Origin: Aureivirga sp. CE67
Lineage (GTDB): Bacteria; Bacteroidota; Bacteroidia; Flavobacteriales; Flavobacteriaceae
Direction of reading: 5' to 3'
DNA length: 64,000 bases
NCBI RefSeq assembly: GCF_015767245.1
Contig: NZ_JADOTV010000002.1
Coordinates: forward strand, 1 to 64,000
Shown here: positions 24,332 through 39,826 of the stretch, piece by piece
Layout of the letters: every line of letters starts with the position of its first letter
How positions within the stretch are numbered: position 1 is the first letter of the stretch
Notes under the pieces: model-generated
The model's input: only the letters and a program-made list of their open reading frames with translations
Told to the model about the DNA's origin: nothing
The model's database searches: none
Translations under genes and position numbers: made by a program

Positions 24332-24359
24332 TTTATGAATATTTTTCTGTCTTTTTGAC

Positions 24360-24460
24360 TTAGGGATTGCAGTGGCATCCTTTTTTGCTTTTCTTCATTT
24401 TGCTTCTTTAGCAAAAAAGATATAGCGGAAAGCCCGACCCGAAATGTAATGTAGGGGAAG
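24360..24460 (+). ncRNA. Structured element resembling Flavo-1 RNA, copy 2
   Basis: A second copy of the element at 703-797: starts TTAGGGATTGCAGTGGCATC, inner stem TTTTTTGCT...AGCAAAAAA, then GATATAGCGGAAAGCCCG. The C24370/G24425 pair replaces T/A of copy 1. It lies between the dxs terminator and a convergent minus-strand gene, so it is not simply a leader of either gene. Confidence 0.5.
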
Positions 24461-37072: not shown

Positions 37073-37126
37073 TTAACCAAAAATATAAGTGAATAATGCC
37101 ATTAAAGATAATACTACTACAATCAT
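37073..37126 (-). CDS. Candidate small membrane peptide (17 residues)
   Basis: ATG to TAA encodes a 17-residue, almost wholly hydrophobic peptide, MIVVVLSLMALFTYIFG, long enough for one membrane helix. A perfect -7 element TACATTTG (minus strand, 37172-37179) lies 45 bases upstream. Very short KdpF/CydX-like subunits have this character, but no partner operon is adjacent. It may be chance: the region is AT-rich. Confidence 0.3.
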   Translation of the reverse strand: MIVVVLSLMALFTYIFG

Positions 37127-37171
37127 AATTTTTGTTTTTATTAGAATTTGATACAAAAATAATTAATGTCG

Positions 37172-37179
37172 CAAATGTA
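37172..37179 (-). promoter_or_regulatory. -7 element of the small ORF
   Basis: On the minus strand TACATTTG matches TAnnTTTG; expected start of transcription about 42 bases before the small ORF. Confidence 0.35.
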
Positions 37180-37270
37180 CGAACTACATCTTTGGGTAGT
37201 TTCATTTTTTCTAATAAAAAAGTGTTAATAAATATCTAAATTTTAACACAATAATATTTTTTGTTTGCCA

Positions 37271-37278
37271 TAACTTTG
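37271..37278 (+). promoter_or_regulatory. -7 element of the TPP-riboswitch transcript
   Basis: TAACTTTG matches TAnnTTTG and places transcription start near 37282, 9 bases before the riboswitch. Confidence 0.5.
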
Positions 37279-37290
37279 CAATATCTCAAT

Positions 37291-37357
37291 AAAGGGGTGC
37301 CTACATCGGCTGAGATCATACCCAAGGAACCTGAGCAGGTAATGCTGCTAAGGGAAA
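37291..37357 (+). ncRNA. TPP riboswitch
   Basis: The THI-box core is clear: GGGGTGCC (37294-37301), GGCTGAGA (37308-37315), ACCC, GAACCTGA (about 37327-37334) and CAGGTAATGCTG (37336-37347) followed by AGGGA. A weak hairpin (37361-37370 with 37384-37394) and a T-rich stretch follow before the ATG, consistent with control of a downstream gene by thiamine diphosphate. Confidence 0.96.
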
Positions 37358-37420
37358 TTTAATTATCAACAATCATAAACACCGTTGAATAATTACCTCT
37401 TTTTATTCATTTCTATTTTA

Positions 37421-39826
37421 ATGAATTATTTAATTACTTTAAAAAAAGTGAAGTTTCTAGTAACTTTTTTTATGTTTTCAATTTTGGCTTTACATGCGCA
37501 AAGTAAATACCAATTTAAGGGACAGGTAGTCGATAGGAATCAATCTCCACTTTCTGGAGCAAATATTACTGTAGGAAACCTACGTACTATTTCTGATTCT
37601 GAAGGTTATTTCTTGTTTACTTTAGAGGAAGGAACACATGAGATTAAAATCACTTATGTTGGTTTTAAAACATTGACAGAAGAATTAAACATACAATCAA
37701 ACGAATCTTTAATTTTCTTGATGACTTCTGAAGAAGTTGCTTTGGAAGAAGTTTTGGTAAAATCGGTTCGTGTTTCGGAAACAGCTCCTGTAACACATTC
37801 TAATTTGAACAAAAAACAAATTGAAGAAAGAAATCTTGCACAAGATATTCCAGTTTTGATGAACTTTTTGCCAGCAGTAGTAACAACTTCAGATGCTGGA
37901 GCAGGAGTAGGATATACAGGAATTCGTGTTCGTGGTAGTGATGCAACGAGAGTAAACGTAACGATTAATGGAATTGCTTTAAATGATTCGGAATCTCAAG
38001 GAACTTTTTGGGTAAACTTACCTGATTTTGCTTCTTCAACACAAAGTATTCAGCTACAAAGAGGAGTTGGAACTTCTACAAATGGAGCTGGAGCTTTTGG
38101 AGCTTCGATTAATTTATTGACAGATGCAGATTCTGAAAAAGCATATGGAGAAATTGCAAATTCTGTAGGTTCTTACAATACGCATAAACATACTTTCAAG
38201 TTCGGAACAGGATTAATTAATAAGCATTTTAATTTTTCAGGAAGATTATCTGTGATCAAATCAGATGGATATATTGATAGAGCTTCTTCGGATTTAAAAT
38301 CTTATTTCTTGACAGGTTCTTATAAAGATGAGAATACTTTCATTAAAGCTTTACTTTTTGGTGGAGGAGAAGTTACTTACCAAGCTTGGAATGGAATTGA
38401 TAAAGAAACTTTAGAAAAAGACAGAACTTATAATCCTGCCGGAGAATATACAGATGAGTTTGGTAATAAAAGATATTATGAAAACGAAGTAGATAACTAT
38501 AAGCAAGATCATGCACAGTTACATATCAATCATAAATTCAACCAAAACTGGACTGGAAATGTAGCTTTCCATTATACTTTTGGAAGGGGATATTATGAAA
38601 ACTACAAAGAAGACGAAGATTTTGCTGAATATGGTTTAGAACCAATTACTATTGGAGGAGAAACTATTGAAACAACAGATTTAGTGCGTCGTAAATGGTT
38701 GAAGAATCACTACTACGGAACTACTTTTTCTTTAAACTACCAAAATGATAAAATAGATTTCAGAGTTGGTGGAGCTTGGAGTAGATATAATGGATTACAC
38801 TTCGGAAGAGTTATCTGGGCAAGATATGCTAGTACAAGTGAGCCAGATCATGAATATTACAATGACTACGGAAACAAAAATGATGCGAATATTTATGCAA
38901 AATTAACGTATCAATTATCGGATAAATTTGAGTTGTTTGGAGATTTACAATTTAGAACTGTAAACTACAAAGCAAACGGAGTTGCTCCAGAATTGGTAGA
39001 TGATACTTTCAATTTCTTCAATCCAAAAGCTGGTATTACATATCGTTTAAACGATTCGAATAATCTTTATTTCTCTTATGCAAGAGCAAACAGAGAACCA
39101 AAAAGAGATGATTATGAAAGTGCTCCAGACAACAAGCCAGAGCATGAAACATTAAATGATTTTGAGTTAGGATGGCGTTTGAATAAAGAAAACTTTATTT
39201 TAAACACAAACTTATACTATATGGCTTATGATAACCAATTAGTATTAACAGGAGGAATCAATGATGTAGGAAGTCCTGTTTCTGAAAATGTAGGAAAAAG
39301 CTATAGAGCCGGTTTAGAAATTGACGCAAGAATTCAATTATTCAAAGATGTTTTAGCAATTCAGCCAAATGTTGCTTTAAGTATGAATAAAAACCAAGAT
39401 TATTATGCAAAAATCGATGGTGAATTAAAGAATTTTGGTGATACAGATTTATCATTTTCTCCAAATGTAATTGCTGGAAATATCATTTCTTTTACACCAG
39501 TGAAAAACTTTAATATTTCTTTCTTAACCAAATTTGTAGGAGAGCAGTTTATGAGTAATCTTGAAATTAAACAATCAAAATTAGATAGTTATTTTGTTAA
39601 TGATTTAAGTGTTCAGTATACAATTTTACCAAAGAAATTATTCGAGAGTATTACGTTTACAGGATTAATCAATAATATTTTAGATGAAGAATATGTATCG
39701 AATGGTTATTTCTATAGCTATGATGATACTTGGTCGGATCCTAATCAGGTAACGACACTTTACGGAGCTGGATATTATCCACAAGCTACGAGAAACTTCT
39801 TAGTTGGCGTAACAATGCGTTTCTAA
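37421..39826 (+). CDS. TonB-dependent outer-membrane receptor under TPP riboswitch (putative thiamine-compound uptake)
   Basis: A ~801-residue receptor. After a signal peptide ending LHAQ there is a carboxypeptidase-regulatory-like domain (GQVVDRNQSPLSGANITVGN), a TonB plug (APVTHSNLNKKQIEERNLAQ..GYTGIRVRGSDATRVNVTIN) and a long beta-barrel ending in YPQATRNFLVGVTMRF with a terminal Phe. The start is the ATG at 37421; a TTG at 37385 lies inside the expression-platform hairpin and is rejected. The TPP riboswitch makes thiamine, its phosphates or a precursor the likely ligand, as for OMP-thi receptors in Bacteroidota. No pnuT or thi gene adjoins it. Confidence 0.92.
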   Translation: MNYLITLKKVKFLVTFFMFSILALHAQSKYQFKGQVVDRNQSPLSGANITVGNLRTISDSEGYFLFTLEEGTHEIKITYVGFKTLTEELNIQSNESLIFLMTSEEVALEEVLVKSVRVSETAPVTHSNLNKKQIEERNLAQDIPVLMNFLPAVVTTSDAGAGVGYTGIRVRGSDATRVNVTINGIALNDSESQGTFWVNLPDFASSTQSIQLQRGVGTSTNGAGAFGASINLLTDADSEKAYGEIANSVGSYNTHKHTFKFGTGLINKHFNFSGRLSVIKSDGYIDRASSDLKSYFLTGSYKDENTFIKALLFGGGEVTYQAWNGIDKETLEKDRTYNPAGEYTDEFGNKRYYENEVDNYKQDHAQLHINHKFNQNWTGNVAFHYTFGRGYYENYKEDEDFAEYGLEPITIGGETIETTDLVRRKWLKNHYYGTTFSLNYQNDKIDFRVGGAWSRYNGLHFGRVIWARYASTSEPDHEYYNDYGNKNDANIYAKLTYQLSDKFELFGDLQFRTVNYKANGVAPELVDDTFNFFNPKAGITYRLNDSNNLYFSYARANREPKRDDYESAPDNKPEHETLNDFELGWRLNKENFILNTNLYYMAYDNQLVLTGGINDVGSPVSENVGKSYRAGLEIDARIQLFKDVLAIQPNVALSMNKNQDYYAKIDGELKNFGDTDLSFSPNVIAGNIISFTPVKNFNISFLTKFVGEQFMSNLEIKQSKLDSYFVNDLSVQYTILPKKLFESITFTGLINNILDEEYVSNGYFYSYDDTWSDPNQVTTLYGAGYYPQATRNFLVGVTMRF

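Follow-up and report, generated by a model that had tools for sequence, protein, structure and literature searches.

TPP-type riboswitches ahead of TonB thiamine receptors are already known. In B. thetaiotaomicron, the gene for the outer-membrane thiamine transporter OMthi (BT2390) and pnuT both lie in TPP-riboswitch operons, and growth at low thiamine suffers when BT2390 is deleted along with other thiamine loci (available part of PMC5613172). The available portion of a marine vitamin B1 survey names a thiamine receptor, omr1, leaves its specificity unclear and makes no mention of a riboswitch variant (PMC12442306), and the accessible sections of a transcriptome study of F. psychrophilum place thiamine among the signals of 5′ regulatory RNAs (PMC9723704). 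The HMP-PP (thiS motif) riboswitch is an aptamer embedded in a terminator and folds differently; its ligand is a compound of the thiamine pathway that is not TPP, as may also be true of the RNA described below (excerpted text of PMC6478431). In the thiM structure, the residues C77 and G78 hydrogen-bond the pyrophosphate directly, whilst the aminopyrimidine is held by G40, G19, G42 and A43 (excerpted text of PMC7824784).

The locus described here lies on the forward strand of a 64,000-nucleotide stretch of the Aureivirga sp. CE67 genome (the window, that is, the whole stretch of DNA analysed). In a relaxed search of 501 bases, the Rfam TPP model RF00059 matches positions 37283–37372 (+) with 45.3 bits and an E-value of 9.4e-8, or 2.1e-7 when the whole genome is searched. 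The gathering score of RF00059 is 54.3 bits, and an Rfam scan of the window at that score accordingly reports no TPP riboswitch at the receptor leader; a relative of the same type in another genome (G043) passes narrowly, with 55.0 bits. RF00059 is the sole family with E < 1 in a relaxed cmscan of positions 37100–37600, which gives no match to the HMP-PP (thiS motif) model. The THI-like element at 37284–37355, upstream of the receptor, is thus real, but the complete THI-box core described in a sequence-only reading of this DNA is in fact incomplete: the match falls below gathering, three of the five P1 pairs are non-standard (Rfam alignment, window only) rather than canonical and J4/5 is short. 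The low score arises because J4/5 lacks one base on each side and P1 is mostly non-standard. With RF00059 the window shares P2, P3, the J3/2 sequence UGAGA, P4, P5, the L5 sequence UAAU and a thiamine-related gene downstream; it differs in having a 1x1 mismatch (1x1 or 2x1 in its relatives) where the J4/5 pyrophosphate pocket should be, in its weak P1 and in its sub-gathering score. To judge from its sequence, the element would work like a standard member of the family whilst lacking defining features that we looked for, and we do not file it as one.

Read from its 5′ end, the leader begins with a -7-type promoter box, TAACTTTG (37271–37278), 5 nt upstream of a UCUCA tail (37284–37288); a similar box lies 5–7 nt ahead of UCUC in 140 of the 145 leaders examined. 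The tail is the exact complement of the UGAGA of J3/2 (37311–37315), which forms the aminopyrimidine pocket and is intact, with P2 and P3 present, in the Rfam alignment; this pairing is read from sequence and cannot covary. UCUC is found in 79 of 80 leaders, as UCUCA in 78 and UCUCG in one, with only L109 lacking it. Between tail and pocket come AAAGGGGU (37291–37298), comprising the P2 5′ strand and an A-run, and P3 (GCC/GGC, 37299–37310); the P2 3′ strand ACCC (37320–37323) follows. P4 (CCU/AGG), a 1x1 G.A mismatch, a 5-bp P5 and the L5 loop GUAAUG (37330–37353) together make up the rebuilt J4/5 region, and beyond these lie two hairpins at the start codon, discussed below. The receptor gene starts most probably at the ATG at 37421 and stops at 39826 (+), encoding an 801 amino acid TonB-dependent receptor in which CarboxypepD_reg, Plug (PF07715) and barrel (PF00593) domains all exceed the Pfam cut-offs. 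The sequence-only reading was therefore right to place the element between a -7 box and a TonB receptor gene. The nearest named receptor is that of Aureivirga marina (88% identity), and a phmmer search of the PDB with E up to 0.001 found no relative. We take omr1 to be probably the same kind of receptor, going by its name.

The same reading had held that no thiamine biosynthesis or PnuT gene lies beside the receptor. This is borne out: no thiamine biosynthesis gene was recognised by eye among the translations of neighbouring ORFs, and tblastn with three PnuT queries found no match within the window. Elsewhere the genome has a thiC and two further TPP elements, both canonical (74.1 and 72.2 bits in the whole-genome search), which adjoin ORFs that we take to be ThiD and ThiS. 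When 24 regions near receptors were searched for PnuT with tblastn (16 canonical, including a short one, seven with variants, and that of G016), the only matches, few as they are, were at L312 (G535) and L323 (G016), both canonical. Upstream of several variant riboswitches, same-strand genes are present with varying completeness (L042 2–2692, L090 669–2290, L075, L077, L034 and L049); from motifs, these presumably encode a PnuT-like transporter, a NadR-like P-loop kinase, a large unknown protein and an ArfB-like protein. The NadR-like kinase could be a missing thiamine kinase. The window also contains two Flavo-1 RNAs (696–785 and 24352–24443) and one Acido-Lenti-1 RNA (353–397), all over their gathering scores.

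The pocket that reads the phosphates in canonical aptamers is the part of this RNA that has been rebuilt. The P4–P5 sequence of the window, CCU-G-AGCAG-GUAAUG-CUGCU-A-AGG, has a longer P5 and a single G.A mismatch in place of the J4/5 pyrophosphate loop GAU/CGU (thiM U62, C77 and G78). On the Rfam alignment, on which we placed the thiM residue numbers ourselves, one base is absent on each side, at the places of U62 and G78, and C77 is replaced by U. Canonical J4/5 is GAU/CGU or CGA; in its place we distinguish a 1x1 mismatch (type I, as in the window) and a 2x1 loop (type II, CCU-N-G-AACAG..CUGUU-U-AGG), both with the longer P5 and about equally frequent. Types were set by the length from CCU to AGG (18, 19 or 20 nt), with two exceptions to the labels (L191, 19 nt, resembles a 1x1 loop and L187, 18 nt, a 2x2 loop) and with one locus (L174) labelled canonical by eye. 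In 36 distinct type I sequences the P4 and P5 positions are 100% standard pairs, the added P5 pair covaries (GC in 15, AU in 13, GU in seven and CG in one), and P4, L5 and the GAA ahead of P4 are invariant or nearly so.

The shortened loop is the rule in the family. Our Flavobacteriaceae set consists of 149 loci: 80 named matches (not all classified to family by title), 58 from other genomes of the set and 11 more including the window; a species may be represented twice. Removal of L126, a second copy of the window, leaves 148 receptor leaders. By length, 72 of these belong to type I and 73 to type II, two are canonical and one (L192) is unlabelled, J4/5 being shortened in 145 of them. Among 45 receptor leaders from other Bacteroidota families the aptamers are, unlike that of the window, mostly canonical: 33 are so by length, six are type I, two type II, and the four unlabelled (L242, L265, L266 and L267) resemble canonical ones by eye. 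The sequence-only remark that Bacteroidota are known to have similar regulation is correct, although the aptamers there are mostly of the canonical form. A further 77 loci have no receptor homologue; 62 could be parsed, and 61 of these have J4/5 of canonical length (L186 is shorter). Five of the 15 unparsed loci (L175, L177, L178, L181 and L184) are free-standing RNAs with degenerate loops, and the other ten carry no class. Outside this set, L274 (G489:C134:75664-75757, minus strand) is an aptamer with a type-I-like shortened J4/5 and no receptor downstream; the ORF behind it is presumably a THI4-like thiazole synthase.

Aptamer and receptor keep company. An aptamer is present at all 80 named receptor loci (L082 included), and a receptor lies downstream at all 58 loci picked from aptamer pattern matches, which strongly supports a TPP-family aptamer directly upstream of the receptor and staying with it. 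Earlier, a TPP riboswitch had been proposed to control the receptor: the association stands, but TPP as the ligand is unsupported because the part that contacts the pyrophosphate is rebuilt. Of 149 Flavobacteriaceae genomes, 130 contain a single match to a strict pattern for the variant, against one match in one genome for the reversed control. On reading, six of the other 19 genomes have slightly different shortened loops (G023, G048, G098, G103, G119 and G126) and two are canonical (G016 and G022), the remainder being unclear or unread. Only 45 of the 149 genomes have a TPP match over the gathering score. Across the phylum the strict pattern is found in 45 of 395 genomes and in none of the 346 outside the order, but these counts are lower bounds, since the pattern missed real cases in four other families (f4, f5, f7 and f10); the same cases refute the idea that the variant is confined to Flavobacteriales.

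A tree of 83 receptors (41 labelled ones from outside the Flavobacteriaceae set, ten chosen from within it and 16 plus 16 taken at random) implies six changes of the canonical label, at least four of them forced by well supported branches, together with 12 changes for type I and 11 for type II. The method was a quick one that left 26 open forks and several long branches, and the number of origins is approximate. It follows that loss of the canonical loop happened at least twice, or was followed by regain, and that either short form has taken the place of the other. One canonical leader within the set, L172 (G022:C44:4988-5094, minus strand), has the same UCUCA tail and the same platform ahead of a homologous receptor (52% identity to that of the window), and would serve as a natural control for ligand comparison.

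Other THI-like RNAs turned up alongside these. L278 (3746–3836) and L279–L283, from G073, G101, G078, G148, G013 and G074, have a strong P1, a degenerate J4/5 and, immediately behind the aptamer, a hairpin and U-run resembling an intrinsic terminator; most are without a convincing sense gene nearby (the one at L283 lies about 240 nt further along), and they may be RNAs that stand alone. Eight of the 149 genomes match a pattern for these degenerate RNAs, G095 and G146 at receptor leaders, the G027 match being unread. Canonical TPP aptamers also precede a methyltransferase-like ORF at L173, L026, L028, L211, L216 and L246, and in the first three of these the second gene downstream resembles ThiL/AIR-synthase.

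Just ahead of the start codon, nearly every leader of the family carries a hairpin, GAAUAA-(loop)-UUAUUC, whose loop contains CCCCUU or CCUCUUU. In the window this platform hairpin (hairpin 1, loop UUACCUCUUU) spans 37387–37408. A candidate was found in 145 of 146 leaders (L038 has none); four were judged wrong picks (L109, L187, L161 and L141) and L124 was dropped later, leaving 140. L109, which lacks UCUC, lacks the platform too. In a 41-sequence alignment (A2), drawn for diversity from 133 distinct sequences, 98.8% of the stem is paired and double changes occur in three of its pairs, a level reached by none of 500 shuffles. CCYCUU in the loop matches AAGGGG, the 5′ strand of P2, as its complement: 137 of the 140 leaders have six contiguous pairs. 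The three others have changes in common on the two strands, which give one pair (U.G) and one mismatch (C.A). Loop and A-run vary together: short A-runs occur with CCCC in 72 leaders and with CCUC in four, long A-runs with CCUC in 61 and with CCCC in four (Fisher 7e-30, kinship uncorrected), and at L174 (G016) the A-U stretch is replaced by ACAGGG and CCCUGU. Tested against dinucleotide shuffles, loop pairing reaches p<=0.05 in 96 of the 145 type I and type II leaders of the family and falls short in 49. Outside the family it is no better than in controls (seven of 31 canonical receptor leaders against 13 of 59 controls, the latter count including L003, the window's own locus); the platform is therefore supported for this family only. 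A similar-looking platform is seen in some outsiders, for example L225. Since canonical L172 has the same tail and platform, the platform can do without the rebuilt pocket and accompanies a TPP-type pocket as well, a point against the reading proposed below.

The UUAUUC arm of hairpin 1 could alternatively pair around the AUG. In the window, hairpin 2 (AUUCAUU/AAUGAAU, 37405–37426, from local folds) contains the AUG and has its AUUC in common with hairpin 1, and two or three nucleotides of the AUG are paired in 38 of 41 local folds; in the 41-sequence alignment the AUG is invariant and its stem shows no covariation. The nested minimum free energy fold of the window pairs AAAGGGGU with the loop at -31.1 kcal/mol, as against -27.6 kcal/mol with P2 formed, a preference of 3.5 kcal/mol for the loop pairing without ligand. 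The 7-bp AUG hairpin is kept in both of these nested folds, so that any opening of the AUG rests on hairpin 1, and hairpin 1 combined with pairing of its loop to the P2 strand is a pseudoknot, beyond the scoring of nested folds. The conserved platform suggests control at translation start. On these grounds we propose, with a probability of about 0.55, that the leader belongs to the TPP-riboswitch family, has a rebuilt phosphate pocket and acts as a translational OFF switch. In the free RNA, UCUCA would pair with UGAGA and so mask the ligand pocket, whilst AAAGGGGU would be captured by the loop, holding hairpin 1 and leaving the AUG free (ON). Binding of a compound with a thiamine ring would restore P2 and J3/2 and open hairpin 1, whereupon UUAUUC would base-pair at the AUG, leaving the receptor untranslated (OFF). 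We infer this direction, OFF with ligand, from the logic of an uptake gene.

What the ligand might be is suggested by the pocket and by gene content. Among the 149 genomes, ThiC is found in 30, ThiG in 30 (E < 1e-100), strong ThiE in 47 (E up to 1e-27) and TPK in 11, whereas ThiL is found in 148, in 147 over the cut-off. By our own count, ThiC, ThiG, strong ThiE and TPK are all absent in 97 genomes; these would have to acquire either thiamine, to be phosphorylated by a kinase from a different family, or thiamine monophosphate (TMP). As ThiL is matched in 96 of the 97 (in 95 of them over the cut-off), TMP is a candidate ligand. With residues of the direct pyrophosphate contacts missing, recognition of the natural ligand probably differs from that of TPP, and TMP or thiamine are the first candidates, in keeping with the gene content; as the pocket change is common to most relatives, the switch may sense another form of vitamin B1. 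A link of the variant to loss of TPK was considered and rejected, given that 10 of the 11 TPK-positive genomes carry it (strict pattern). In a fuller account, which we consider possible but clearly less likely than not, the variant senses TMP or thiamine rather than TPP, arose several times ahead of the TonB thiamine receptor in a family whose genomes mostly show ThiL, acting on TMP, as their sole route to TPP, and is read out beside the start codon through the loop that competes for the P2 strand. That the receptor imports thiamine or a derivative, as had been supposed, is a fair expectation, though one drawn by analogy with OMthi, a TonB-type transporter behind a TPP-family riboswitch likened here by arrangement only and tested genetically (available part of PMC5613172).

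The main and serious rival, which we regard as having a considerable chance though short of even, is an ordinary TPP switch with weaker binding. Such a switch would hold the phosphates through Mg2+ and the remaining G, turning uptake off at a higher TPP level than biosynthesis. The intact J3/2 pocket fits this well, as does the presence of canonical L172 and L174 ahead of homologous receptors within the Flavobacteriaceae set, and interconversion of types I and II is what one would expect if the detail of the loop matters little. Yet the residues replaced or missing are those at the direct pyrophosphate contacts, C77 and G78 (excerpted text of PMC7824784), and each of the two specific forms, 1x1 and 2x1, is seen again in separate lineages.

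Two other explanations appear much less probable. The sequence-only reading had suggested the hairpin at 37361–37394 and the T-run at 37398–37406 as a possible expression platform, which would be of the transcription terminator kind, and a 10-bp stem is indeed predicted there in the window, its sequence kept in A. marina (L033). However, that stem was not seen in the other genera compared, where the element held in common is the CCYC-loop hairpin (37387–37408); the T-run is part of the loop and arm of that conserved hairpin, and the complementarity on the AUG side is conserved as well. A terminator platform is therefore very unlikely, and the conserved platform points instead to the start codon. 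Slightly less likely still is a decayed aptamer that binds nothing, the conservation being that of a translation-control hairpin only. The sub-gathering score would be in keeping with decay, and Flavobacteriaceae do have THI-like RNAs that lack a receptor and whose J4/5 is degenerate, but the invariant P4, L5 and GAA and the covarying P5 of the 36 type I sequences would not be expected of a decaying RNA.

A search of the open-access full-text literature, a scope that leaves out the Weinberg 2017 work on variant riboswitches, found no description of the variant. Under our preferred reading of a translational OFF switch with a rebuilt pocket, the start-codon loop that captures the P2 strand would be an unusually conserved and testable mechanism even with TPP as the ligand. 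Should the ligand prove to be a different one, a very common riboswitch would have a widespread variant of altered specificity that evolved recurrently and lies mostly hidden below the Rfam threshold, and this would offer a handle on the form of vitamin B1 that these mostly auxotrophic bacteria take up.
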